Source: a virus
IMG/VR virus record: IMGVR_UViG_3300036780_000408
Location: 1-22,756 of that record
DNA length: 22,756 nucleotides
Strand: one strand, 5' to 3'
This document shows positions 2,354 to 17,060 of the stretch, one piece after another. The notes beneath the pieces were generated by a model. It saw only the letters and a program-made list of their open reading frames with translations. It did not search any database and was not told the DNA's origin. Within the stretch, counting starts at the first letter, position 1. Every line of letters begins with the position of its first letter. A program made the position numbers and the translations under genes.

Positions 2354-2391
2354 TTGCGGCCGCCGATCGAGAGAGTGAGACGTTCCGTCAT
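2095..2391 (-). CDS. Phage tail assembly chaperone, gpG-like (98 aa)
   Basis: The protein (SIGGRNYAIRRFKLGELRRL...FEVLRQALSHAEPPV) has the opening typical of tail tube chaperones: a short beta-rich start followed by helices acting on a small globular domain. This family keeps tape-measure and tube subunits assembly-competent in long-tailed phages. It directly follows the tail tube gene with a TGATG overlap at 2389-2393, the usual arrangement. A GTG one codon upstream is an alternative start. In most siphophages a programmed frameshift extension and the tape-measure gene come next; neither is present here, and the gene instead meets the convergent membrane-protein gene. Family assignment rests on position, size and sequence style. 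Confidence 0.75.
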   Translation of the reverse strand: MTERLTLSIGGRNYAIRRFKLGELRRLFAGNIAPAEFGFEVLRQALSHAEPPVEDPDDLEIGADEYRALITRTLEFAGMRQAEAVKPGEEPAGRSPGP

Positions 2392-3128
2392 CACGACGCC
2401 TCCGCGAAGCTCCAGTTCATGACATTACCGGCGGCGTTGGCGAAGACATCGAAATCCATCTCGGGGACGACGAAATCCTCGAGCTTTGTCGAATAGGCGA
2501 GCTTCGAGGCGACGCAGTTGAAGAGCTTCACATTGACCGGCTTGCCCTGGTATGTCCCGCCGTAGAGCTGCGCCTGGAAAGTGGGCGTGGTGCCGAGCAG
2601 CTGGTTATTGACGGCGTTCTGCTCAGCCGAAGTGCTTGTCTGCGTGAAGGTGTAGGAGATCAGCACCGCCTTGCCATTGTCGCCCGTGTTGAAGGAATAG
2701 ACGCCGGCGGCGACGCTGTACTGTCCCGAAGCGGGCGCGCTCGCGACTTTGGTGAAAGGCAGTCCCGTCGCGGCGTTGACGACGCCGTAATCATCGACGA
2801 AGGTCGCAGCGTTCGCCACCGTGACGGCGCCGGTCGCAATCGTGCCGGCTTCGCCGAAGGATGTCGCGAGCTGGCCCGAGGCGAGCGTCTGGCCGAAAAA
2901 CAGGTTGTTGAAGGCGAGGCCGGAGATCTGCGCCATCTTCGCCTTTCCCGTGATCTTGCCCGCGCCGCGCGCGACGGCGACCGGGAATTGGAACTGCCCG
3001 GTCAGCGTCTTGGTGGTGAAGCTCACATCGAGCTGCACGTCTTGAATGAGGCCGAAATTTCCTGGCGTCGCGTTGGCGACGTCGGTGCGCGAGCCCAGCA
3101 GCACGCCGGAGCCAAACTGAAAGATCAT
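2391..3128 (-). CDS. Phage major tail tube protein (245 aa)
   Basis: The beta-rich sequence opens with MIFQFGSGVLLGSRTDVANATPG and NFGLIQDVQLDVSF and ends in a VPEMDFDVFANAAGNVMNWSFAEAS strand. This is the pattern of siphophage tail tube subunits, which polymerise into the tail lumen (gpV-like fold). A strong Shine-Dalgarno (GAGGAG) precedes ATG at 3128. Residues about 60-170 contain an Ala/Thr/Ser-rich stretch that may be a surface loop or Ig-like insertion. The upstream neighbour is a 61-aa small protein ending 3 bases before this start, and the tail chaperone overlaps its stop codon. The order small protein, tube, chaperone supports the call independently of homology. Confidence 0.88.
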   Translation of the reverse strand: MIFQFGSGVLLGSRTDVANATPGNFGLIQDVQLDVSFTTKTLTGQFQFPVAVARGAGKITGKAKMAQISGLAFNNLFFGQTLASGQLATSFGEAGTIATGAVTVANAATFVDDYGVVNAATGLPFTKVASAPASGQYSVAAGVYSFNTGDNGKAVLISYTFTQTSTSAEQNAVNNQLLGTTPTFQAQLYGGTYQGKPVNVKLFNCVASKLAYSTKLEDFVVPEMDFDVFANAAGNVMNWSFAEAS

Positions 3129-3131
3129 GGG

Positions 3132-3317
3132 TCAAATCTCCTCGCTGAAGCGCCGCTTAAGATCTTCCTTGGCGGCAAAAGCATGGTTCCATGCAGTGGT
3201 GTCGGGGGCGACCGGACTGCCGGGAAAATGGTCGGACCACCAAGCGTCGACGAATGCGGCGACATCGCCAGCGCTGAGCACGCGCGCAGACCGCTGCGGC
3301 GCGGAAGGCGCATCCAT
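3132..3317 (-). CDS. Small conserved-type phage protein upstream of tail tube (61 aa)
   Basis: ATG at 3317 has GGAG 7 bases upstream, and the gene ends 3 bases before the tail tube start, so the two are probably co-translated. The sequence is acidic at the centre and aromatic-rich (DAWWSDHFPGSP, AWNHAFAAKEDLKRRF), with no membrane segment. The compact Trp/His/Phe pattern looks like a genuine folded small protein and not a shadow frame. I do not know a function. Its place inside the tail operon suggests a role in tail assembly or simply a carried small gene. Confidence 0.7.
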   Translation of the reverse strand: MDAPSAPQRSARVLSAGDVAAFVDAWWSDHFPGSPVAPDTTAWNHAFAAKEDLKRRFSEEI

Positions 3318-3374: not shown

Positions 3375-3974
3375 CTAGTTGCTGATCGCGACGATGTAGA
3401 AATTGTCGCCGATCGGCGCGATGAACCCGACGCCGTATTCGAGCGGCGTATCGGCGATCTTAGCCTTCCAATCGGCCGACCACTCGGCCTGCGGACGTGC
3501 GATCTCACCGCTCTCGTCATAGACGAGAAGATGCCAATTGCTGATGCCGGCCCAGCCATCCTCCGAGAGCACAAAGACCTTGGTGCGCGCGCCGCGATCC
3601 GCCGGCATCGCGGCGATCTCCGCGAGATAGCGGCCGCGATTCATCCGATAGTCGAGATATTCGCCGGCGACCATGGTGCCGTCATGAAAGACGCGGTAGT
3701 TCGCGAGCGAGATCGCCAGCGACAGCGGCAGCATGGCGAATGCCGCGGCCCGCGCGTACCGTTTCACGATGGCGGACCAGATAGCAAGGCCCAGCCCGAT
3801 CACCGCCGCGACATACCATGCGGCGACGATGAGAAGATCACCCCACGTATCGTCGGGCTCGGAGGCCCAGTACAGCACCGTCGCCAGCGGGAAGGCGAGC
3901 GCGCATATGATGCCCACGAGGCACGAGAGCGGCCACGACACGCGGCGCCGATCGACCAGACCTTCGCCCGTCAT
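3375..3974 (-). CDS. Membrane protein D (199 aa), distant fourth member of the tandem array
   Basis: Three hydrophobic segments lie at about residues 15-36, 47-70 and 76-92, followed by a soluble domain of about 105 residues. The C-domain carries DGWAGISNWHLLVYDESGEIARP, which aligns with WDGFLSQWWGVVYDAADEFAKRP of its neighbours, so I treat it as a distant homolog. It lacks all four C-terminal cysteines of the other three. ATG at 3974 overlaps the stop of the preceding gene by 4 bases (ATGA), showing translational coupling; a TTG two codons upstream is the alternative. With KR residues between segments 2 and 3, the C-domain should be periplasmic. Proposed role, by context only: immunity or accessory protein for the toxin-like gene at 6096-6395. 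Confidence 0.8.
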   Translation of the reverse strand: MTGEGLVDRRRVSWPLSCLVGIICALAFPLATVLYWASEPDDTWGDLLIVAAWYVAAVIGLGLAIWSAIVKRYARAAAFAMLPLSLAISLANYRVFHDGTMVAGEYLDYRMNRGRYLAEIAAMPADRGARTKVFVLSEDGWAGISNWHLLVYDESGEIARPQAEWSADWKAKIADTPLEYGVGFIAPIGDNFYIVAISN

Positions 3975-4618
3975 TGGCAATAGCCGAAGGTACCGGCGCC
4001 GACATAGTAGTGATTGCCGACACTAAGCGAGGTGCTGGAGCAGGAAAGAGACTTGCCGATCGGGTGGCGCTTCGATTCAGCCGATCGTTCGCGCGGCGGC
4101 TTCGAGAACTCGTCACTGGCGTCGTAGACGACGCCCTCCCAATTCTCGAGAAAGCTATCCCAGACAAAGATGATGATCATCGGATCGTCGCACTGCCAAT
4201 CGGCGACAGTAATGTCTTGTGATTTGATGTCCTCGGGATCGCATTTGCCGGCCTTGGCGCGCGTTACAACCGCGTCGAAAGCCGCTTTGTTCGTGGCAAA
4301 ATGAAGCACCTCGCTGACATGCTGACCCAGAATCGCGACCGTCGCCGCGAAGGCGAGAACTCCCATCCATGCGAGACCCATGAGGTATCGACGCCTGAAG
4401 ATGGTCTTCAATGCCATGACCAATGCCGCGATCGATATGACGAGCGCGAATAAGGTCACCGGCCCCAAGAACAGCAGCGCCAGCCAGAAGACATGAGCAG
4501 CGATGACGAGGAGGCCGGCCAAGATCAAGCCGATTGCACACAGCGCCACAAAGCTGCGCACGGCACGGTGCTGCTCGGCGGATATGGGCACTTTCTTGGA
4601 GACGGGAGTGTTGCTCAC
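3971..4618 (-). CDS. Membrane protein C (215 aa), tandem array paralog
   Basis: Three membrane segments (about residues 21-42, 45-70 and 79-98) are followed by a C-terminal domain of about 115 residues. That domain contains the shared motifs AKAGKC, WxCDDPxxIxFxWDxF, GVVYDAxDEFxKxP and LSCSxxSxxVGxHYY. Four C-domain cysteines (126, 143, 193, 214) match those in proteins A and B. The positive RRRY after segment 2 predicts a periplasmic C-domain, where two disulfides could form. GTG at 4618 is chosen because it lies 1 base past the upstream stop and keeps the natural N-terminus; the longer open frame upstream is Arg/Ser-rich shadow. Function unknown; probably part of an immunity-like or envelope-protective set. 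Confidence 0.85.
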   Translation of the reverse strand: MSNTPVSKKVPISAEQHRAVRSFVALCAIGLILAGLLVIAAHVFWLALLFLGPVTLFALVISIAALVMALKTIFRRRYLMGLAWMGVLAFAATVAILGQHVSEVLHFATNKAAFDAVVTRAKAGKCDPEDIKSQDITVADWQCDDPMIIIFVWDSFLENWEGVVYDASDEFSKPPRERSAESKRHPIGKSLSCSSTSLSVGNHYYVGAGTFGYCQ

Positions 4619-4619
4619 G

Positions 4620-5267
4620 TCACTGGCAACCCTCTGGTCCGCTGGCAAAGCTCCCGCTGCCGATATAATAGTGGTTGCCCACGCCGAACGACGCCCAGGA
4701 GCAGGAGAGAAGGTCGCCAATTTCACGGCTCTTCCACGCCGCCGCTCGCGTGCGCGGACGCTTCGCGAACTCGTCGGCGGCGTCGTAGACGACGCCCCAC
4801 CACTGCGAAAGGAATCCGTCCCAGGGGAAAACGATGGTGATGGGATCATCGCAGTCCCAGCTATCGACAGCGACGCTTCGTGCCTTGAAGTCCTCGGCTG
4901 TGCATTTCCCGGCCTTGGCACTCGCCACGACAGCATCGTAAGCCGCCTTGTGCCAAACGAAGTAAATCGCGTCACCGGCGCGCGAACCGAGCATGGCGAT
5001 CGCGACCGCGAGAACGGGAAATCCCGACCATGCGAGGCCCTGGAGGTATCGGCGCTTGATCATTCTTCTGACGGCGACAACCACGGCCGCGATGGGCACC
5101 ACCAGTGCCCAAGTCGCCGCGAAGAAAAAGAGTGGCGACGTTACGACCAAGAAAGCCCACGCCATTTCCCACGGAGCGATCGCGGCACAGACAAGGCCGG
5201 TGATGATCAGCCATCCGACGCACAGCGCCAAAAAAACACGCGATGGGTCGGGCCCTTCAGGAGGCAT
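4620..5267 (-). CDS. Membrane protein B (215 aa), tandem array paralog
   Basis: Membrane segments lie at about residues 11-31, 36-66 (possibly one long or two shorter) and 77-94, with RRMIKRRY between the last two, so the C-domain is predicted to be periplasmic. The C-domain is nearly the same as that of protein A in the middle (VAVDSWDCDDPITIVFPWDG onward) and keeps the four cysteines at 122, 139, 189 and 214. ATG at 5267 is preferred over GTG at 5285 because AAGGA sits 8 bases upstream of it. An 86-bp block is identical at the DNA level to protein A although the flanks differ. The next gene, C, starts 1 base after this stop. No named family recognised. Confidence 0.87.
   Translation of the reverse strand: MPPEGPDPSRVFLALCVGWLIITGLVCAAIAPWEMAWAFLVVTSPLFFFAATWALVVPIAAVVVAVRRMIKRRYLQGLAWSGFPVLAVAIAMLGSRAGDAIYFVWHKAAYDAVVASAKAGKCTAEDFKARSVAVDSWDCDDPITIVFPWDGFLSQWWGVVYDAADEFAKRPRTRAAAWKSREIGDLLSCSWASFGVGNHYYIGSGSFASGPEGCQ
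4789..4874. repeat. 86-bp perfect direct repeat, copy in gene B (other copy 5557-5642)
   Basis: The 86 bases here match 5557-5642 without a mismatch, including all synonymous positions, whereas sequence just outside is clearly diverged. The block encodes the SWDCDDP-to-GVV core of paralogs B and A. Perfect identity inside diverged genes points to recent gene conversion or recombination. Confidence 0.93.
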
Positions 5268-5387
5268 GAGCGCAATCCTTGCCACGGCATTGCACCGGTG
5301 CGGCCGGAGACAGCGAGCTTGCTTTCTGGGTCATCACGGTCTCCCTGCCAGATCATGCGTCGAAGTCGCTCATCCGCGTACTCGGCC

Positions 5388-6032
5388 TCAATCGCAGCCG
5401 TTAGGACCTGTGCCGTAGTCGCCATAGGCGATGTAGTAGTGATGGCCCACGCCGAACGACGCCCAGGAGCAGGACAGAAATTCGCCACTACGACGGTGAG
5501 TCCACGTCGCTATCCGCTTTCGCGGCCGCTTCGCGAACTCGTCCGCAGCGTCGTAAACGACGCCCCACCACTGCGAAAGGAATCCGTCCCAGGGGAAAAC
5601 GATGGTGATGGGATCATCGCAGTCCCAGCTATCGACAGCGACACCCCGTGCTTTGAGGTCCTGCCCCGAGCACTTCCCCGCCTTGGCGCTCGCGACGACC
5701 GCATCGTAAGTCGATTTGTACCAGGCGAACCGCAGCGCATCGCCAACCCGCCAGCCGGCAATCTCCATCAGCGCAGCGAGAACGGGAACGCAGAGCCAAG
5801 CGAGACCGATGAGATGGCGGTGGCTGAACAATCTCCTCGCGGCAACAATCATCGCCACCAGCGACACCGTCAGCCAGGCAAGCCAGAGCCAAACCGCTGT
5901 GAAAGTGAATCCCCTGAAAGGCACCCAATCCAGACCCGACGCGGCGAACGCCGCGGCAAGACCGGCGGCTACCGAGCAGACGGCACTCACCGCGACAAAA
6001 ATAGGAGAGGCGCCGGGCCTACCAGGGGACAT
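5388..6032 (-). CDS. Membrane protein A (214 aa), first of the tandem array
   Basis: Hydrophobic segments lie at about residues 11-33, 42-66 and 73-92, with ARRLFSHRH between the second and third, giving an N-in, C-out prediction. The C-terminal domain has cysteines at 121, 138, 188 and 213 and the shared motifs AKAGKC, SWDCDDPITIVFPWDG, GVVYDAADEFAKRP and LSCSWASFGVG. ATG at 6032 has no clear Shine-Dalgarno sequence. It begins 63 bases after the toxin-44-like gene ends, making it the first gene behind that candidate toxin. Multiple paralogous immunity genes behind one toxin are common in polymorphic toxin loci, which motivates the immunity idea; no known immunity family is recognised. Confidence 0.86.
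   Translation of the reverse strand: MSPGRPGASPIFVAVSAVCSVAAGLAAAFAASGLDWVPFRGFTFTAVWLWLAWLTVSLVAMIVAARRLFSHRHLIGLAWLCVPVLAALMEIAGWRVGDALRFAWYKSTYDAVVASAKAGKCSGQDLKARGVAVDSWDCDDPITIVFPWDGFLSQWWGVVYDAADEFAKRPRKRIATWTHRRSGEFLSCSWASFGVGHHYYIAYGDYGTGPNGCD
5557..5642. repeat. 86-bp perfect direct repeat, copy in gene A (other copy 4789-4874)
   Basis: This is the partner of the block at 4789-4874, 768 bases away and in the same orientation, identical over its whole length. A shorter near-identical block also links the two 3' ends (GCCCACGCCGAACGACGCCC, around 5443 and 4676). Confidence 0.93.
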
Positions 6033-6095
6033 GCACGCAATAGCAGCTGAATCATTGCGTCATTTCTACCGTCAGGATTGCGGCGGTTTAGTGAT

Positions 6096-6395
6096 TCACG
6101 GAGCGATCTTGCCCGTCATGTAGTCGTCGTACCCCTTCTTGATCAGGGGGACCGTGACCGGGTTGGCTCCCAAAAGGCGCAGCGACCTTTCGCCGTGATT
6201 GGCAATCGCCGCTCCGACCAAGGTCTCTGGCCAGGAAAGCCCCGCTGCCGCGGCGACAACGCCATAATTGTAATTGCCGATGTCGACATAGTCTCGATTG
6301 TAATCGTCGGTACTGCCGCCATAGATCACTTGGTAATCCACCGGACCACCGCGAGGAAATAGGGCGCGCGTGCAGGCGGCGGAATACGGGCACAC
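6096..6395 (-). CDS. Toxin-44-like domain protein (99 aa), candidate polymorphic toxin
   Basis: Residues 38-45 read DIGNYNYG, followed by VVAAAAGLSWPETLVGAA and, near the end, PLIKKGYDDYMTG. From memory, this order (a GN-x-NYG motif, an Ala-rich helix, then a GYxYY-like end) resembles the 'bacterial toxin 44' domain of polymorphic toxins, a predicted RNase family. The match is by eye and needs a profile search. GTG at 6395 is the first start codon after the tail gene's stop; no Shine-Dalgarno sequence is visible, so translation may depend on coupling to or readthrough from the tail gene, which is in the same frame. The protein has no signal peptide. Four membrane-protein genes follow. An alternative is that it is the cut-off C-terminal domain of a former tail fusion. 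Confidence 0.6.
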   Translation of the reverse strand: MCPYSAACTRALFPRGGPVDYQVIYGGSTDDYNRDYVDIGNYNYGVVAAAAGLSWPETLVGAAIANHGERSLRLLGANPVTVPLIKKGYDDYMTGKIAP

Positions 6396-6401
6396 GCAGC
6401 A

Positions 6402-6836
6402 TCAGCTCGGCACCACGATTTCGACGGGAATGATGGCGACGGCCTGGTGGCCGAGGATGCCGCCATCGGTTTCGATCTTGCCGTTGATCCAGGCCTGGTA
6501 GACGGCGCCGCCGAGCGTCTGGACATTGGCGGCGAGGTCGCGGCCGAGCGGCGCGATCGCGGCGTCGAGAGCGTCGAGCAACGGGTTCAGCGACAGCGCC
6601 GGCGCGCTGCCGTCGTCGGACGCCTGGGCATAGACATAGAGGTCGACGGCCAGCGTCCATTTCGCCGGCAGGCCGCGCTGGCGCGCCGCCGTCTCATGCT
6701 TTTGCGTCATGAACAAGGCCGGCTGCTCCGCCGCGGGCACGTCGCTCCAGTGGCGCAAGCGCCGGCTCGCCGTGGCAAAGCCGGCGGCGCCCGAGATGAC
6801 CGTGAAAAAGGCGGAGTAGATGGCTTCGCGATTCAT
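6402..6836 (-). CDS. Tail terminator / tail completion-like protein (144 aa)
   Basis: ATG at 6836 overlaps the upstream stop by 4 bases. The sequence starts with helix EAIYSAFFTVISGAAGF and has RLRHWSDVPAAEQPALFMTQKHE, WTLAVDLYVYAQ, LNPLLDALDAAIAP and GGAVYQAWINGKIETDGG, the layout of HK97-type tail completion/terminator proteins (gp11-like). Such proteins cap the tail tube and join it to the head. It sits directly after the gp10-like gene, exactly where this function is expected. The TGA stop at 6402-6404 is followed in the same frame by the toxin-44-like domain, which is unusual for a tail terminator gene. Confidence 0.8.
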   Translation of the reverse strand: MNREAIYSAFFTVISGAAGFATASRRLRHWSDVPAAEQPALFMTQKHETAARQRGLPAKWTLAVDLYVYAQASDDGSAPALSLNPLLDALDAAIAPLGRDLAANVQTLGGAVYQAWINGKIETDGGILGHQAVAIIPVEIVVPS

Positions 6837-9771: not shown

Positions 9772-10728
9772 CTACCGCGGCAGTGGCTGCGGCAGGCGCA
9801 GCGCGAGCTTGGTGAGCTCATGGGCGCGCTGCTCGGGGCTAAGCCCCGCGAGGCGCGTGACGAAATCGGCGACCCGCTCGCCACTGGCGCCGCCGCCATC
9901 CTGCTCCTTGCCGATGACAATCGCCTTGGCGATGGCGCGGGCCGGCAGCGGCTCGGCTTCGAGCCTCTCCAGGCGCTTCGCCAGCGCCTCCATGCGGCGC
10001 TGCAACGGCGCCATCTCTGCGGCGAGCCGCGCGAGTTTCTCCGCAGCACCGGCAGCGCCCGCCGTCATCGCTCCATCCGCGGCGGCCGGACAGGATGCGC
10101 CGAGATCAACCGACGTATCATGCAGCTTTTGCACCCGCGCGAGGTCGACGCGGCTGTGGCGCGCGCCGACCTTGCCGTAGCTTGAGGCGGCAGCGCTCGA
10201 GGGCAATTGGCCCGGACATGAGGCGCCCAAATCGACCGAGGTGTCGTGCAGCCCCTGCACGCGCGCGAGATCGACCCGGCTATGGCGGGCGCCCACCTTG
10301 CCGAGACCGCGCGCCTTATAGAGCTCGATCACCGCTTCGGGATTGGCGGGGCGGTCGACGAGGCTGATCTCGAGGAGCTCGACGCCGGTGATGATATTCT
10401 TCTGCGCCTTGTCGCGCTCGACGACATGGCCGCCGATCGAGAAGCCCTTGTAGACGCCTTCCGTCACTTTGCGCCAGGCCTCGTCATCGATGATGCGCGC
10501 GGCGAGGTACAGCCCCTTGTCGTCGATCTCGGCTTCCTTGGCGACACCGACCGCCGAGGGCCGATGCATCTCGCGAATGTTGGCGAATCGCATATAGTCG
10601 GGCAGCGCCGCCTCGATCGCTTCCTTGCGCACGACCTCGCCCTGGCTGTCGAGTGCCTCGGTGCTGGCATAGCCGCAGACCAGCCGCTGCTCGCGATCGA
10701 TCTTGGTGATCTCGGCGAAGAGCCTCAT
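9772..10728 (-). CDS. Prohead serine protease, HK97/XkdF-like, with duplicated motif (318 aa)
   Basis: Residues 1-135 carry the prohead protease core: GYASTEALDSQGEVV, a likely catalytic His55 in REMHRPSAVG, likely nucleophile Ser97 in YKGFSIGG and the ISLVDRPANPEA strand. It matures the capsid by cutting the scaffold part. Residues 143-172 and 185-214 are a near-perfect repeat of a 30-residue unit (GKVGARHSRVDLARVQ, LHDTSVDLGASCP). Such units occur at the C-terminal side of phage proteases, usually once, from memory. A coiled, Ala/Leu-rich region (223-262) follows and may serve as scaffold. ATG at 10728 has AGGAAG just upstream. The gene follows a hairpin at 10757-10778 and precedes the capsid gene. 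Confidence 0.9.
   Translation of the reverse strand: MRLFAEITKIDREQRLVCGYASTEALDSQGEVVRKEAIEAALPDYMRFANIREMHRPSAVGVAKEAEIDDKGLYLAARIIDDEAWRKVTEGVYKGFSIGGHVVERDKAQKNIITGVELLEISLVDRPANPEAVIELYKARGLGKVGARHSRVDLARVQGLHDTSVDLGASCPGQLPSSAAASSYGKVGARHSRVDLARVQKLHDTSVDLGASCPAAADGAMTAGAAGAAEKLARLAAEMAPLQRRMEALAKRLERLEAEPLPARAIAKAIVIGKEQDGGGASGERVADFVTRLAGLSPEQRAHELTKLALRLPQPLPR
10088..10302. repeat. Intragenic tandem duplication in the protease gene (two 89-bp units)
   Basis: Units at 10088-10176 and 10214-10302 align without gaps at a 126-bp offset (42 codons). I count 17 differences in 89 bases, yet the encoded 30-residue units differ at only one residue (Lys versus Gly). Confidence 0.9.
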
Positions 10729-10803: not shown

Positions 10804-11073
10804 CTAGCTGTTGGTCTTTTCCGCGAATATTGTGCCGGCCATAGTTGCACAGCTCTCGCTGATCGCACCGGAATGTCCCGCGACCAGCCGCACTTCGGGT
10901 TTCGTTCGCGCGCAGAACGAGCAAGTGAGCTTGCGCTCCTCCGGCCCGGCCTCCGGTCCCAGCGTATCCCGCAGCACGGCGCCCGCCACTTCATGGAGAT
11001 TCATAAGCGTGCCCGTCTGATAGGCGTCGTCCTTGAGCGCGCGAAATAAAATCGCGCGCAGTGCGAGCTCCAT
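10804..11073 (-). CDS. ClpX-type C4 zinc-finger-like small protein (89 aa), degenerate
   Basis: The C-terminal half (LTCSFCARTKPEVRLVAG, SGAISESC) matches the ClpX N-terminal zinc-finger pattern CSFCGKSxxEVRxLIAG...ICDEC, known from family memory. One of four zinc ligands is replaced: the expected CxxC second pair reads SxxC (ISESC). ClpX zinc fingers bind substrates and adaptors, so a phage copy could interfere with the host ClpXP system, but this is inference. The N-terminal part (ALKDDAYQTGTLMNLHEVAGAVLRD quoted by position) is helical. ATG at 11073 lacks a Shine-Dalgarno sequence and lies inside a frameshifted ORF, so the gene may be either an overlapping gene or the C-terminal piece of a broken fusion. 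Confidence 0.6.
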   Translation of the reverse strand: MELALRAILFRALKDDAYQTGTLMNLHEVAGAVLRDTLGPEAGPEERKLTCSFCARTKPEVRLVAGHSGAISESCATMAGTIFAEKTNS

Positions 11074-11267
11074 AGGCGAGCGCGATGGTGCCCGTCAGCT
11101 CATCGCGCGGCCGCGGGCGATAGATGCGCCGGCCGCCCTTCTCCGCCACTTCCACCAGGATCGCCGGCCCCAGCGCGATGCTGTCACGATCGCAAGCAAG
11201 CCGAAGCCCACCCATCGCCCAGCGCGAACGTGGTCATACGGGCATTGCTCGAGATGCGGAGGTTCAT
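10991..11267 (-). pseudogene. Frameshifted paralog of the N-terminal domain of the 12098-13129 gene
   Basis: From ATG 11267 the frame reads MNLRISSNARMTTFALGD, then stops after 27 codons. A second frame continues from 11215 as GGLRLACDRDSIALGPAILVEV, ending at 10991. The intact paralog at 12098-13129 reads MNLRVSGDARITTFRLGE and then GLACDRDGIALGPATLVDAVE without interruption. Between the shared anchors CTGGGCGA and TTGCTTGCGATCG the paralog is 2 bases longer, which explains the frameshift. A further shift near 11040 would connect to the zinc-finger ORF, so the ancestor may have been one fusion gene. Sequencing error cannot be excluded. Confidence 0.7.
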
Positions 11268-11360: not shown

Positions 11361-11822
11361 TCAGCGCTTACAGCGCTGTTGCTGTTGCTGGATCGCTCGC
11401 CACTGAGCCAGCAGTGTGTTTCCCGGCGGTCCCCCCAGCGCGAATTCATCGTGGTTCATGGGCCCGTGAACAGTCGGCGCGAAAACGAAATCATTGCCGA
11501 GCATGATCAAGATTTGCTCGCGATCATGCTTCGCCACTTCCGCCGCGAGTACGTCGACGGCCGGGTGCGTCAGCTTGATGAGCACAGCCTCCCCGAACCG
11601 CCCTTTGTCAGAAGGCATCACCGACACAATTTCGGGATCGACAAGGAAGGGCGGATGCCGTAGCGCTTTCCGTGGCGGATGGACCACGTCGCCGCGGAGC
11701 GGGGTTCCCGATGTCCAGCGGAATGTCAAAGACGGGCAGCTCCCGCCATCGTCCGCGCCCCAGACCGGACCGCTCGCAGCGATGAGCAATGCGGCAACCA
11801 AGACGCGACAAAGCGAGCGCAC
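11361..11822 (-). CDS. Exported protein with SecD P1-like domain (153 aa)
   Basis: GTG at 11822 gives a signal peptide (VRSLCRVLVAALLIAASGPVWGADD) with likely cleavage after WGA. An earlier in-frame start at 11987 gives an unnatural Arg-rich N-terminus and is not used. The mature part (VDPEIVSVMPSDKG, AVLIKLTHPAVDVLAAEVAKHD, REQILIMLGNDFVFAPTVHGP, HDEFALGG) follows the SecDF P1 head sub-domain pattern, 'DV.sA....G.p.V.f.L...g...la..T....gk.laI.ldg.v..aP.v..pI..g...I.G'. No SecD transmembrane region is present, so it is a soluble periplasmic version. A Gln run (QQQQQ) near the end is notable. In this cargo block it could be an exported immunity or secretion-blocking factor; the role is inference. 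Confidence 0.7.
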   Translation of the reverse strand: MRSLCRVLVAALLIAASGPVWGADDGGSCPSLTFRWTSGTPLRGDVVHPPRKALRHPPFLVDPEIVSVMPSDKGRFGEAVLIKLTHPAVDVLAAEVAKHDREQILIMLGNDFVFAPTVHGPMNHDEFALGGPPGNTLLAQWRAIQQQQQRCKR

Positions 11823-12097
11823 GACGCCGGCGTCCGCGCCCACCGACCGCAGCCGGCAGACATCGCCATTCCGCGTCACGCCGGATTTGGCGGGCTTTCC
11901 CCGAGAGTTCCAGAGCATCGTCATCAACGGCCCCGACAAGAGCCACGAAACATGGGTGATACGCGAACCGTTATCGCGCATCCCCACGCGAGGTCATCGA
12001 CCTCCGGCTCCGCTGGAGACTGTTTTTGAGGGAAATGCGACTTCGCGTCAAGGTAGAAAAACAGGAAGGGATACCTCCTCCTGGGCGAGGGAGGCAC

Positions 12098-13129
12098 CTA
12101 GTTCCTTTGTAATAGTCTCTTGACGTATTCGGCGCCCGGCCGCGAGATCGACGATGACCGGGGGAAGCGCGGATCGATCATCACCAGCGTGTTGCTGCGC
12201 TTGTCATAGAACAAGGCGCGTCCGCTGGCATCCCGCTGCGGCTGCGCCGTCCGCATGACATTCTCTGCCAGCGCCGCCAAATCGCCTGGGCCGCCGACGT
12301 CGGGGAACTGCCTTGGGTCAACCGCATGCAGCCGATAGGTATTCGCCGCGGCGACGCCAGCAGCGTTCCTGATCGCGTCATCCAGCGCATGCCTGGCCTC
12401 GGCGACATGATCGCCGGTCGGCGGCTTCTCGGGGTCCCACATATCGTTGAACAGCTTGTTGTTCGGGTCGATGGCGTAAAGCTGCTTGGTATAGATATCG
12501 AAGAGCTCTCGGCGAACTACCGCCGTCGGATCGAGGGCGTCTTCGTCGGGGTCATGGATGTCGGGCTCACTGTACTCGGGGGACTGGCGCGTAGGGCATG
12601 CCAGGGGCGAGGGTCTGGGCAAGCTGCTCGCCCGCTGCCTCGCTGCCGCCGTTCGCGTCGCTACGGGTGCCGTCGTCGTAGGCGGCGACCTGCATGCCGC
12701 CGCTGCCGCCTCGCTCGTCCAGCGCCCGTGCTCGTCGCGCGGTTGGTCGGGGCTGTATTTGGCAAGGCTCTCCGCGCGGGCGAGTTTGCCGAACGCCGCG
12801 GCGGTCAGTGGCGGCAGCCTCAGGAGCACCGTGGCGATGCCGGCGAGCGGCAGGTTGCCATCTTCCAGCGCTCGCACCGCGACATCGAGCTTTGACAGGC
12901 ACCGGGCAAGATCGCGCGGTTTTTGCCTTCCATACGCCAGATCGAGAATGCGCGCGATCTCCGCATCCTGCCGCCGGCGATAGAGGCGCTGACCGATCGC
13001 CTCGACCGCGTCCACCAAGGTCGCCGGGCCGAGCGCGATGCCGTCGCGATCGCAAGCAAGGCCTGGCCCGCCGCGCTCGCCCAGCCGAAACGTGGTTATG
13101 CGGGCGTCGCCCGAGACGCGGAGGTTCAT
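12098..13129 (-). CDS. Cargo protein with QPRDEHGRWTS motif and possible toxin-like C-terminus (343 aa)
   Basis: Residues 1-110 form an N-terminal domain with LACDRDGIALGPA, shared with the broken gene at 10991-11267. Residues about 126-138 carry KYSPDQPRDEHGRWTSE, the motif also found in the portal. A Ser/Pro/Thr-rich linker of about 45 residues follows, then a C-terminal domain (about 185-343). The domain ends with ALFYDKRSNTLVMIDPRFP and SRPGAEYVKRLL, similar in style to the 'GTxxIxDPRxPxxGTxFRPxxGxxYF' ending of BECR-type toxin domains, low confidence. ATG at 13129 is preferred; ATG at 13135 is an alternative. The linker probably contains two compensating frameshifts (see findings). Motif plus variable tail suggests a phage-linked effector. 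Confidence 0.7.
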   Translation of the reverse strand: MNLRVSGDARITTFRLGERGGPGLACDRDGIALGPATLVDAVEAIGQRLYRRRQDAEIARILDLAYGRQKPRDLARCLSKLDVAVRALEDGNLPLAGIATVLLRLPPLTAAAFGKLARAESLAKYSPDQPRDEHGRWTSEAAAAACRSPPTTTAPVATRTAAARQRASSLPRPSPLACPTRQSPEYSEPDIHDPDEDALDPTAVVRRELFDIYTKQLYAIDPNNKLFNDMWDPEKPPTGDHVAEARHALDDAIRNAAGVAAANTYRLHAVDPRQFPDVGGPGDLAALAENVMRTAQPQRDASGRALFYDKRSNTLVMIDPRFPRSSSISRPGAEYVKRLLQRN

Positions 13130-13215
13130 TTCCATCCATCCAAGGGCGAGTGCGGGCGGGGATCGAGCGGGCGGCACTCCCACCAGCGCTGCCGAGGCTG
13201 CGGCTCAACCGGCGC

Positions 13216-13680
13216 TCATTCCTCGCGCCAGAATGTGAGCTGCAGCGTCGCGGCGATGTTGAGATAGGGGATAACGCGCGGGTTGGTGAGCCAATCCGGC
13301 CAATCCGCATCGGCATGGGGCGGCGGCTCGCTGAGCGCGGCCTCTTGCGCCCAGACCCCGCCACGCCGCGTCGGGCGGCTCAAGGGGATCTCGAGGTAAC
13401 GCTGTGTGCCGGCGAAGAGGTAGCGATCGCCGCTGTCTTTGGGGTGCAGAAGAACTTTCACATAGAGCCGGCCATTGGCGATGGCGGCGGTGATCGTGAT
13501 GCGCTGGCGTTTCTCGTACCAGAACAGGGCCATGTCGCCCGAGCAAAGCGGGCGCGCCACGTCCACGACGCAATGCAGCATCACACCGGGATCGCGCGGC
13601 GCCGGATCGAGTTGCACGGCGCCTACCGCCCAAGTCTCCGCCGCGGCCGGCGCCGACATCGCGTATGGGAGACCGAGCAA
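13216..13680 (-). CDS. Exported protein, paralog of 14084-14566, with disturbed start (154 aa)
   Basis: The mature part (AETWAVGAVQLDPAPRDP onward) aligns with the paralog at 14084-14566: AETW, LDP/VDP, DPxVxxxC, LCxxxMxLxWY, GxRYL, LSEPPP and a final N...ATLxL strand are shared. Two conserved Cys (VMLHC and PLCSG) may form a disulfide. TTG at 13680 is the first start codon but leaves a very short signal peptide. In-frame codons upstream (CTG AAA CTG GGC, from 13707) continue the alignment with the paralog's signal peptide MAKLGAAL, with ATG replaced. The start therefore seems to be lost, non-standard, or shifted by one base. It stands between the 57-aa gene and the motif-bearing cargo gene, and may be a periplasmic immunity-type protein. 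Confidence 0.7.
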   Translation of the reverse strand: MLGLPYAMSAPAAAETWAVGAVQLDPAPRDPGVMLHCVVDVARPLCSGDMALFWYEKRQRITITAAIANGRLYVKVLLHPKDSGDRYLFAGTQRYLEIPLSRPTRRGGVWAQEAALSEPPPHADADWPDWLTNPRVIPYLNIAATLQLTFWREE

Positions 13681-14083: not shown

Positions 14084-14566
14084 TCAGCGTTCTGGACGGA
14101 CGTCGATCCGCAATGTAGCGGCGGGCACAAGATTGCCGTTCTCGGGCCAATGATATGGCCAGCCCTCGCCGGCACTTGGCGGCGGTTCGCTCAAGCTCAC
14201 ATCGAGCGAGTAGGTGCTGCTGCGCAGTGTAGGATCACCCAACCGGATCAGCGCGTAAGGCAGGGCGGAGACATAGAGGTAGCGCTCGCCGGTCTCGTGG
14301 TCTTTCAATCGAAATTTCAGAAAGAGGTTACCGGGCCTAACGAGGGCGATGAGCACGACCGTCCAGGGCTCACCGTACCAGAGCAATTTCATCTCGGCTT
14401 GGCAAAGAACTCGCACGTTCTCGGAGCAACGGATCGTCACCGCGGGATCGGACGATTTGGGATCGACCTGGTGGATGCGAAGAACCCAAGTCTCCGCCGC
14501 CACTGCCGACGGAACCGCTAACAACGGTGCGAGCAGCAATGTCAGCGCAGCGCCCAGTTTCGCCAT
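14084..14566 (-). CDS. Exported protein with Sec signal peptide, paralog of 13216-13680 (160 aa)
   Basis: ATG at 14566 gives MAKLGAALTLLLAPLLAVPSAVAAETW, a clear signal peptide with AxA cleavage near residue 24, so the mature protein of about 136 residues is periplasmic. An upstream TTG at 14605 extends it by 13 residues and is not needed. Conserved with the paralog: AETW, QVDP, DPxVxxxCxxxxxxLCxxxMxLxWY, GxRYL, LSEPPP and WPxxW...N. Two Cys residues (TIRCSENVRVLC) are close together and likely pair. The gene follows the portal gene and is the first cargo gene in the portal-protease interval. It could be an immunity or envelope factor linked to the portal C-terminal extension; this is inference only. 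Confidence 0.82.
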   Translation of the reverse strand: MAKLGAALTLLLAPLLAVPSAVAAETWVLRIHQVDPKSSDPAVTIRCSENVRVLCQAEMKLLWYGEPWTVVLIALVRPGNLFLKFRLKDHETGERYLYVSALPYALIRLGDPTLRSSTYSLDVSLSEPPPSAGEGWPYHWPENGNLVPAATLRIDVRPER

Positions 14567-14637
14567 CTTCGTAAGCACGGCTAGATCACCAGTCGGGTTG
14601 AGCAATACATGATTTGTATAACTGCCAATCGTGGAAC

Positions 14638-14748: not shown

Positions 14749-16698
14749 CTATCTCCGCGGCCGGGGGGCTTTTGGCAGCGGTGACGGCGGAAATTGTGTC
14801 AATTCGCCATGTGGAAGGTCGATCTGCGGCGCCGGCACCTGCGCCCCATGGATCTCAGGATCCTCATTTTCATGAGGTGTTGGACCGAGGGGATGCACTC
14901 TTCCCTCCTCGGGAATGCTCTCATCCGGAATATTGGTGCCGGGGATGTTCGGCCGCTCTGGCGGTGGGAGGGGCTCCCGCTCGACGTGGCGGTCATCGCT
15001 GCTCGCGACGAGGTCGCCAAGACGATCGCCGCTTGTCACTCTTGTGCCGACCGCAGGTGCTGTCGCCGGATCGATGCCGCCGTATACGAGAGTGGTGCCG
15101 TCCGATCCGAGAACGTGAACGGTTGCGCCCGCGCCACGACCGACAGAAATCTCGTCGCCACTGTGCACGACCACGCCATCAGCTTGCGCATGCACGCCAG
15201 GCCGGGCATTTCCACCAACACTTGTCCACCGCCCGTGCTCGTCACGCGGTTGGTCGGCGCTGAATTTGCTGACCGCGTGTTTGTCCCCAGACGCGACCAG
15301 CGCAGCGTTGCCGTTGGCCGCATTGCCCCCCAGCGGCACCGGTCCGGAGCCGGTGAAGACCATGGGTGTGTCGCCATGCTCGACGGGGTCGAGGCCGATG
15401 TCGTGGCGCGCCTCCTTGATGGTCTTGATGCCGGTCGTGACATAGGTCCGGGCGATGTTGGCGAGCGTCTCGGGATCAACCTCGCGATCATCGCACCAGG
15501 CGAATTCGAGGTCGGGCGCGGCGAACTCGGTCACCAGGATGTAGTCGATGAGCTGCTTCACCCAGTTCTGCACCGGCGCCAGACCCTCCGCGACCGCGGC
15601 GTCATGCGCGGTCTCGGCTGTGGCTCGGTTCATCATCCCGGCGAAAGGCTGCGGCGAGATCGAGAAGGCGAAGCAGATGACCCGCGCCAGCCACTCGTCG
15701 AAGACGTTCTTGAGCTCGTCATCCTTGGTCGCGATGAAGGTCTTGGCGACCCCGCCCGGCACGAACTTGGCGTGGCGACGCTGCGCCAGATTGCCTTCGA
15801 GCAACGCGTCCCAATATTGCTGGAATTCCTTGATCTGCTGCGGCGACCAGCTTTCGGGCGTGCCGATGAGCGCTTCCGGCACGTTGCCTTCGGTATAGTA
15901 GCTCAGCTGAAAAAGCTGGCGGCGCAGCGCGATGTTGACCGTCATCAGCACTTGCTCGACCGGCGAATAGCCATAGAGCTTGTGCGAGCGCGCATTGCGC
16001 GGGCGGTAGATCAGATCGCGCGTCGTGAGATCGACGGCAGGAAGCCCGTGCAGCACTTGCTGGTATGCGGGCTCGGGCGGCAGCGGCGAGCGGCCATCGG
16101 CGGTAATGAGGCGCTTCACCGTCGTGCCGTCGATCGGCTCCAGCGCGTAGAGTTGGCCGCCGCGCGTGCGCCTGATGAATAGCGCCGGCGCATCGACGAC
16201 GAAGAGATCCTCGAGCAATTGGCGCAGCCAGGTCGACCAGAAATTGATCCGGTCGGGCATGCGGAAGAATTCTTCGATCGCGCCGATGCGAGGATCGTCG
16301 AGCCGGTCGGAAGCGGGCTTCGCATTGGCGAGAGCGCGCGGGCGGATGTTCCAGGTGAGCCGCTCCATCTGGTCTTTGCGCGTCTCGATGACCAGGCGCA
16401 AGAGATCATAGCCATCGGCGATGGAGCGGAGCTGCGCGAAGGATACCGCCTCGTTGCCGCGCGGCGTGACGGTGAGGTTGTAGCCGACGGGATAGTCGAA
16501 CTGCCGCCCCGCCACTTCCGGCGGCGCTTGCGGCGCCAGCGGCTGGAACGGGCCGAACCATGCCTCGGGCCCGGCGCCGGTGATCATGTATTTGACGCCC
16601 TGCAGCACGCGCTGAATGAAGGTAGGCTCGATGGCCGTGCGCGTGGCCCCGGCGCGTTGCGCTGCGGCGATGGATTTGCGGTCAACCGGCTCGGCCAT
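14749..16698 (-). CDS. Phage portal protein, HK97-type, with C-terminal extension (649 aa)
   Basis: The start is ATG at 16698 (MAEPVDRKSIAAA); the 115 codons upstream are a shadow of the fibre-adaptor gene. The core, about residues 20-465, has the portal features: QFDYPVGYNLTVTPRG, RSIADGYDLLRLVIETRKDQ, LEPIDGTTVKRL, SHKLYGYSPVEQVLM and FVPGGVAKTF. It forms the dodecameric DNA gate at the capsid vertex. Residues about 470-492 contain KFSADQPRDEHGRWTS, then about 155 extra residues. In these, GTTLVYGGID, VGTRVTSGDRLGDLVASSDDRHVERE recall an M23 peptidase-like beta fold without the catalytic His, and the end is Pro-rich (PPPERPNIPGTNIPDES by position). An added C-terminal module on a portal is unusual; its role is unknown. 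Confidence 0.93.
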   Translation of the reverse strand: MAEPVDRKSIAAAQRAGATRTAIEPTFIQRVLQGVKYMITGAGPEAWFGPFQPLAPQAPPEVAGRQFDYPVGYNLTVTPRGNEAVSFAQLRSIADGYDLLRLVIETRKDQMERLTWNIRPRALANAKPASDRLDDPRIGAIEEFFRMPDRINFWSTWLRQLLEDLFVVDAPALFIRRTRGGQLYALEPIDGTTVKRLITADGRSPLPPEPAYQQVLHGLPAVDLTTRDLIYRPRNARSHKLYGYSPVEQVLMTVNIALRRQLFQLSYYTEGNVPEALIGTPESWSPQQIKEFQQYWDALLEGNLAQRRHAKFVPGGVAKTFIATKDDELKNVFDEWLARVICFAFSISPQPFAGMMNRATAETAHDAAVAEGLAPVQNWVKQLIDYILVTEFAAPDLEFAWCDDREVDPETLANIARTYVTTGIKTIKEARHDIGLDPVEHGDTPMVFTGSGPVPLGGNAANGNAALVASGDKHAVSKFSADQPRDEHGRWTSVGGNARPGVHAQADGVVVHSGDEISVGRGAGATVHVLGSDGTTLVYGGIDPATAPAVGTRVTSGDRLGDLVASSDDRHVEREPLPPPERPNIPGTNIPDESIPEEGRVHPLGPTPHENEDPEIHGAQVPAPQIDLPHGELTQFPPSPLPKAPRPRR

Positions 16699-16703
16699 GC
16701 CCG

Positions 16704-17060
16704 TCACCCCGGCGCCTGGCAATAGACATGCGACCACAGGGTGAGCGTGCGGCCGAGGCTGGTCACGATGGTCGCCTCGCCGCGATAGGTGTTCCCTGCG
16801 ATCACGCCATTGCCGATGGTCTGGTTGGAAAAAGTGCGCGTGCCCAGAATGGGATCGCTTTGCGTCGTTGCCGTCGCGGCGCCGACGAGGCGCGATGCGG
16901 CTGACGCGTCCGGCGTGATCCCGGGATCGCTGCTCACCACCGCGAGCTGCCACGAGGTCGAGGCGACGGTCTCGCCTGTCTTCAGCCGCGAGGTGAATTC
17001 GAGCGAGAACGTATCCGTCTCGCTGGGCTCGATGATGTCCCAATCCTTGCCGACATACAT
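16704..17060 (-). CDS. Small beta-rich virion protein, possible fibre-tail adaptor (118 aa)
   Basis: ATG at 17060 lies 1 base after the preceding stop codon (TGACATG), indicating coupling. The protein starts with MYVGKDWDIIEPSETDTFSLEFTSRL, then TVASTSWQLAVVSSDPGI, GNTYRGEATIVTSLGRTLTLWSHVYC. This Ig-like arrangement (tryptophan after 'SST', a central strand, then TxxGRTLxLxxxV) resembles small phage adaptor or fibre-tail proteins, from memory of similar sequences. It sits between the propeller-like protein and the portal. The extended upstream frame is an Arg-rich shadow. Assignment is tentative; a decoration or adaptor role is the most likely. Confidence 0.7.
   Translation of the reverse strand: MYVGKDWDIIEPSETDTFSLEFTSRLKTGETVASTSWQLAVVSSDPGITPDASAASRLVGAATATTQSDPILGTRTFSNQTIGNGVIAGNTYRGEATIVTSLGRTLTLWSHVYCQAPG

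Follow-up and report, generated by a model that had tools for sequence, protein, structure and literature searches.

The window analysed here is a virus record of 22,756 bases (IMG/VR record IMGVR_UViG_3300036780_000408), and the locus of interest is an insert of 3.3 kb that is bordered upstream by a terminator-like gene (6402-6836) and downstream by a tube-like gene (2391-3128). The insert consists of a 99-amino-acid (aa) open reading frame, ORF99 (6096-6395), and four membrane protein genes, M1 (5388-6032), M2 (4620-5285), M3 (3971-4618) and M4 (3375-3980); all of these genes, like the others placed in the window below, are on the minus strand. ORF99 starts with GTG, in a frame that is open to 6401, and contains the string DIGNYNYG and a C-terminal GYDDYMTG. 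The arrangement described in an initial annotation of this DNA was borne out in these respects, and a small gene that it did not include (3132-3317), probably native to the slot and with relatives in 11 fetched phage loci, lies between M4 and the tube-like gene. The gene order given there for the borders, a tail terminator-like and a tail tube gene, also holds, but the labels themselves are mostly positional, since the best matches of both genes are to PHROG families of unknown function (PHROG 8150 at 2.7e-40 and PHROG 8234 at 2.8e-60, respectively) and the terminator-like gene matches a tail-terminator PHROG weakly (0.0028). From the Brevundimonas phages among its relatives, our guess is an alphaproteobacterial host.

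The slot in related phages and the origin of ORF99

Relatives of both border genes were gathered from viral contigs and two cultured phages, giving 54 loci in which both genes are present (including two same-contig pairs, L017/L043 and L018/L044). The gap between them is 23-833 bp in 52 of the 54, the exceptions being L005 (4548 bp) and L006 (2646 bp), whose slots likewise contain Ntox44-like toxins and relatives of the membrane proteins. Among the surveyed phage loci, matches to ORF99 (44-45% identity) together with matches to M1-M3 occur in the window, L005 and L006 only. The arrangement is more than chance, as both ORF99 and the membrane family have relatives at this position in two further phages. 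The toxins of these two phages are long, each comprising a carrier domain of approximately 120-140 residues, a short joint (QPRDEGGRWT or QPRNDRGRWT) and an Ntox44-like tip. Two such genes (L005a and L005b) lie in the L005 slot, one intact (3937-5112, 391 aa) and one frameshifted, and the single toxin gene of L006 is frameshifted. A frameshift was also seen in the carrier gene of a further phage, L071, and stops in the L005 relative of M4; these lesions may reflect decay, phase variation or assembly errors.

ORF99 resembles the tip of these long toxins. Its match to PF15607, the Pfam family for Ntox44 (polymorphic toxin type 44), has an E-value of 0.0012 and 19.6 bits, which does not reach the curated cut-off of 24 bits, and ORF99 and the L005 and L006 tips all score under this cut-off (15.7-21 bits). 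In pairwise profile alignment (hhalign), the phage tips match four cellular Ntox44 domains with a probability of 97.7% (E 1.8e-12). The excerpts of the Zhang 2012 survey drawn on here (PMC3482391) give DxK, GNxxxG and DxxxD as the Ntox44 motifs and name no immunity protein. Where the four cellular domains read WDYK or WDLK, all four tips of this first phage lineage (window, L005a, L005b and L006) read DYQ; GNxxxG is present in the window and L005a tips and absent from the L005b and L006 tips; and DxxxD is missing from all four at the site aligned by eye with the cellular DDPxDQ or DNPADQ. A DYNRD string is found in ORF99 ahead of GNxxxG. Judged by their sequences, the tips of the window, L005 and L006 are divergent relatives of Ntox44 and not full members, so that the Toxin-44-like designation of ORF99 in the annotation can be kept as a relationship but not, with two of the three motifs missing at the aligned sites and the score below cut-off, as membership.

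Among phage and plasmid records, ORF99 matched a Rhizobium plasmid Rhs protein (E 0.003) and phages only at 0.5 or worse, and the L005b toxin had no relative. Viral contigs scanned with ORF99 and M1 as single sequences gave no match, which is weak evidence as relatives do exist, and two alignment-based scans of genome contigs found no relative. The Ntox44-type domain model is predicted, with low confidence, to be all-helical. Foldseek, run with the tip model only (L005b tip, a weak model with a mean predicted local distance difference test (pLDDT) score of 60.6), found nothing (best E 1.6 in PDB and 0.65 among viral structures), and profile searches of solved structures gave no credible relative; for the membrane family the best match was at E 0.29. 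Matches to RecA in these searches (E down to 4.2e-9) contained no single passing stretch and were taken as an artefact of long fused chains. Matches in NCBIfam were at chance level, except for an RNase A-like one in phage locus L105.

The start of a lost carrier is probably still visible in the window. An ATG overlapping the stop of the terminator-like gene opens a frame, MLRVPVFRRLHAR, of which 13 codons (6364-6402) resemble the carrier start of L005b (...RRLHAR...). Of 18 bases taken from the L005b start after the match had been noticed, 16 are matched at 6381, and this is the sole place with at least 15 matches among 45,476 positions on both strands. The tip follows in a frame other than that of the ATG and the carrier-start piece. 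Internal deletion of the carrier would be the simplest history of the locus, and we infer that ORF99 is probably a relic or orphan tip and no longer a working toxin; it could still be translated from its GTG.

Another way to view ORF99 is as a working stand-alone toxin that is translated from the GTG, is produced late or packed into virions, and has M1-M4 as immunity proteins. ORF99 retains most of the Ntox44 domain, and stand-alone Ntox44 proteins of 130 aa occur on plasmids. The GC content of its three codon positions (0.60, 0.49 and 0.71) is like that of local coding DNA, and in comparison with L005b the proportion of nonsynonymous differences (pN) is lower than that of synonymous differences (pS), with the synonymous rate (dS) near saturation. 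However, the ATG at the terminator stop opens a different frame, the one containing the carrier-start piece, and ORF99 has neither a carrier nor a signal sequence and lacks motif residues at the aligned sites. We regard a working stand-alone toxin as unlikely, and ORF99 looks less like the toxin gene proposed in the annotation than like the tip of a long toxin whose carrier has gone.

The membrane proteins and their association with the tip

As annotated, the membrane genes comprise three clear paralogs and a distant one, with M2, M3 and M4 respectively 60%, 43% and 22% identical to M1. Membership of M4 in the family is supported by a profile match (E 1.9e-5) and by blastp to the L005 relative (E 3.5e-7 in an 11-protein database), and M4 has a relative in L005 at 44% identity. 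Hydropathy gives three transmembrane (TM) segments in M1-M3 and only two above threshold in M4, so that the description of the proteins as three-helix proteins applies to the first three and is not fully confirmed for the fourth. In M1-M3 and the L005 relative alike, three hydrophobic segments, the second and third of them joined by a positively charged loop, precede a soluble C-terminal domain of approximately 120 residues in which four cysteines are common to all four proteins. Because of the positively charged loop, the positive-inside rule predicts that the soluble domain lies outside the cytoplasm. The ratio of nonsynonymous to synonymous rates (dN/dS) in the membrane genes is 0.06-0.45 in pairwise counts. 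Over approximately codons 120-165 the DNA of M1 and M2 is 89-100% identical, compared with 47-69% in the membrane half, a pattern such as might be expected after gene conversion in the soluble core. A structure model of M2 was weak (mean pLDDT 50.3); M2 had no relative among phage and plasmid records, and L005_F1 had none among plasmids.

Small membrane proteins occur in phage, and the membrane genes might in principle be holins or parts of known defence systems, beside which ORF99 would have arisen by chance. The only holin match was that of M4, at E 1.2, and PADLOC was silent for ten proteins; with the soluble domain described above and the association with tips described next, we consider this explanation very improbable.

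The membrane profile and PF15607 match the identical 3 of 48 phage records. When viral contigs were scanned with the membrane family alone, the L005 and L006 records were recovered together with five new contigs, and all five carry a related, weakly Ntox44-like tip. Homologues of the membrane family therefore keep company with the tip, as the annotation's pairing of the two had supposed, and ORF99 does have a match, below the Pfam cut-off, to a toxin family. The cassettes of this second lineage flank the terminase gene on both sides, with a different carrier and a joint that is mostly a variant of the type QPRVxAGNxDGGQWTSG. The tips counted were one in L159, two in L160, three in L161 and one in L163 (L162 was omitted as it has the same matches as L161, and L159 and L160 begin with tips that are 99% alike), and all seven are followed by a membrane-family match, which in the second cassettes of L160 and L163 consists of N-terminal pieces only, near the locus end. 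One L161 tip has no carrier and adjoins a terminase-gene fragment, in parallel to the window, and carrier-less tips are thus seen in two phage lineages. In the first lineage, the window and L005b tips are directly followed by a member of the membrane family. Further carriers with joint variants, some bearing other tips, lie around the second-lineage terminase gene (L159 258, 6682 and 7762; L161 6846; L163 2885). On plasmids, the neighbours of Ntox44 were examined in 4 of 14 records, and in three of these four (Enterobacter, Pantoea and Metabacillus) the next gene product has an N-terminal TM segment.

Proposed toxin cargo and membrane immunity

With a probability of roughly 0.68, we read the locus as a cargo slot, lodged among the structural genes of a tailed phage, for polymorphic and probably interbacterial toxins with membrane immunity genes, here reduced to an orphan tip and four candidate immunity genes. 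The ancestral cargo would have been a carrier toxin (carrier domain, QPRDExGRWT joint and Ntox44-like tip) with membrane immunity genes behind it. In the window phage the carrier would then have been deleted, leaving a tip that no longer shares a frame with the surviving start, and the membrane immunity genes would have expanded to four. The soluble domain of M1-M3, predicted to be outside the cytoplasm, would meet an incoming toxin at the cell envelope and neutralise it there, and the placing of the immunity proteins in the membrane suggests that the toxin acts at the envelope or enters from there. What we counted for a toxin/immunity reading was the long, filled slots of L005 and L006, the intact carrier toxin of L005, the hhalign match of the tips to cellular Ntox44, the association of tip and membrane family, the dN/dS values of the membrane genes, the neighbours of the plasmid Ntox44 genes, the carrier-start remnant and a curated immunity family in L071, where a frameshifted carrier between the capsid and connector genes is followed by an Imm-NTF2-2 gene (PF15631; 3.3e-9, 37.2 bits against a cut-off of 26). 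The L071 tip is JAB-like by eye, and Pfam finds nothing in it. Of the toxin/immunity array that the annotation proposed, the association of tip and membrane family stands, whereas ORF99 does not look like a complete toxin. From this arrangement we infer toxicity, protection, virion loading, delivery and an envelope target.

The tips could alternatively be entry enzymes or other injected effectors that aid the phage, with the membrane proteins serving as a superinfection block or being unrelated accessory genes. In the portions of PMC5512222 drawn on here, the lysozyme domains that some portal and tail proteins of phages carry are proposed as entry aids, and other tips in the present phages include lysozyme, pesticin-like and M23-like domains; in the census described below, the joint is also followed by zeta, ADP-ribosyltransferase and topoisomerase domains. 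Against this, the tip and the membrane genes stay together in two lineages with different carriers, and sister cargo includes an RNase A-like CdiA-CT domain (L105) as well as the curated immunity family of L071. Tandem paralogs and orphan tips, moreover, are marks of toxin loci. Polyimmunity is also described in PMC11699363. On balance, a role of the tips in aiding the phage seems to us an improbable account of the locus.

Several points nevertheless weigh against the cargo-slot reading. Since its score is below the Pfam cut-off and DxK and DxxxD are missing at the aligned sites, the ORF99 tip may be inactive. The tips of the five new contigs are tied to Ntox44 only weakly, with PF15607 finding none of them at E 1, and hhalign linking them to L005-type tips at 57.9% (E 1e-4) and to cellular Ntox44 at 5.4% (E 0.007). 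The four cysteines are not retained in the second lineage, where three proteins share one invariant cysteine, and the membrane proteins there have two, three or five TM segments. Behind the L005a and L006 tips a different membrane family, F3, comes first (157 and 165 aa, 40% alike), and only then a family member, while the Ntox44 Rhs gene of the Rhizobium plasmid has IS66 genes behind it and no annotated protein with a TM segment. Finally, Ntox44 is called a predicted RNase or nuclease in passages of three papers, and this fits a cytoplasmic target better than an envelope one.

The locus shares features with several known systems. Orphan toxin/immunity cassettes of contact-dependent inhibition (CDI) and Rhs loci likewise have carrier-less tips followed by immunity genes; the present ones differ in lying within phage structural gene clusters. 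The MuF polymorphic toxins of temperate phages, as set out in parts of PMC5576092 and, for Bxa, of PMC11699363, are also phage-encoded proteins with an N-terminal carrier and variable C-terminal toxin domains, and have small immunity genes behind the toxin and a location among structural genes. The MuF gene, however, lies directly behind the portal gene, whereas the present slot is between the terminator-like and tube-like genes; neither the carrier nor the full toxin here has a MuF match in Pfam, and the membrane immunity array and carrier-less window tip belong to the present locus. With Ntox44 as covered by the survey excerpts (PF15607; PMC3482391) the tips share a homologous domain and its all-helical predicted model (low confidence), but the window tip is below cut-off without DxK and DxxxD at the aligned sites, and the carriers are unlike Rhs, LXG or type VI secretion system (T6SS) proteins. 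Phage polyvalent proteins and portal-fused effectors are described, in the same portions of PMC5512222, as fusions of effector domains to portal or MuF that are believed to enter the cell by injection; here, by comparison, a single tip type occurs both on a portal and on a dedicated carrier, following the same short joint in each, and the cargo is accompanied by candidate immunity genes. Among the PMC papers searched (subscription journals and preprints being outside their scope) we found, judging by titles, abstracts and consulted passages, no description of the carrier, the joint or the membrane family, and none of six joint-like strings was found in the PMC papers searched.

The membrane proteins would thus be candidate immunity families for Ntox44-like toxins, for which the 2012 survey gives none in its consulted excerpts (PMC3482391), and the toxins would be phage toxins on non-MuF carriers and on the portal itself, with immunity in the membrane. 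Membrane immunity suggests that the toxins act at the envelope, either as a phage enters or once a cell has lysed, and in this way virion proteins would be tied to the competition among lysogens.

Other carriers, portal tips and the joint

A portal-protein ORF of the window (14749-17043; PF04860 at 8.2e-17) carries a QPRDEHGRWT joint and an M23-like C-terminal tip (PF01551 at 3.5e-4, below cut-off). Behind it lie a small protein with a hydrophobic start, a candidate immunity protein (14084-14605), and its 37% identical paralog with no TM segment above threshold (13216-13680); neither has a Pfam match, and they look like a second, unrelated candidate immunity pair. A second carrier protein of 361 aa (12098-13183) has a carrier domain, a QPRDEHGRWT joint and an unnamed tip, and behind it are a 208-aa ORF with a hydrophobic segment and no Pfam match, again candidate immunity (11361-11987), and a 74-aa carrier-domain relic (10991-11215) that is 53% identical to the 361-aa carrier over 55 aa. 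The carrier domain of the 361-aa protein is related to that of L005b (E 3e-7). Its tip matches the portal tip of L135 (37% over 161 aa, E 5e-27), and therefore one tip type is found on both portal and carrier. Conversely, the shared carrier domain bears different tips, namely Ntox44-like, lysozyme and two further ones. The portal of G001 has a pesticin-like domain (5e-37) and its third carrier a lysozyme (8.7e-38), and the G002 portal has a tip that is deaminase-like by eye (Pfam 0.07).

Portal or portal-like proteins also have the RNase A-like CdiA-CT domain behind the joint in L105 (1159-1662; 9.8e-14) and unnamed tips behind it in L114 (5230-5802) and L140 (4115-4906). The closest cultured portal, that of the Brevundimonas phage Strzyga (L164 2375-4702, 776 aa), is without the joint and has a C-terminal part that is MuF-like by eye, and for this reason joint and tip may occupy the place where MuF sat. 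Displaced pieces of portal genes adjoin cargo genes in L071 (5471-5694) and L085, from G002 (2202-2288), and are probably recombination debris.

A census of the joint gave 71 motif places on 69 stretches, of which 62 remained after removal of 3 short and 6 duplicate tips, and 61 were run against Pfam. The matches were to MuF (5), zeta toxin (3), ADP-ribosyltransferase exoenzyme (3), topoisomerase IB (2) and others (1-2 each), and many of the 61 tips match nothing. As MuF, topoisomerase IB and other domains also follow it, we rejected the idea that the joint is specific to toxins.

A broader and more tentative view, which we hold to be possible but doubtful as a whole, is that these elements form a modular kit. 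The short joint (QPRDExGRWT or a variant) would let tips swap among the portal and carriers in gaps between structural genes, and virions would bring these tips to the next cell and its envelope. Prophages would hold growing arrays of membrane immunity genes, with the M family a first immunity family for Ntox44-like toxins, such that lysogens survive sister phages and rivals do not.

Elsewhere in the window, two direct repeats of 92 nt (10086-10177 and 10212-10303; 82% alike) are read in frame within the linker of a prohead-protease-like gene (9772-10728), and the G001 relative of this gene has an extra stretch of approximately 310 nt at the repeat site.

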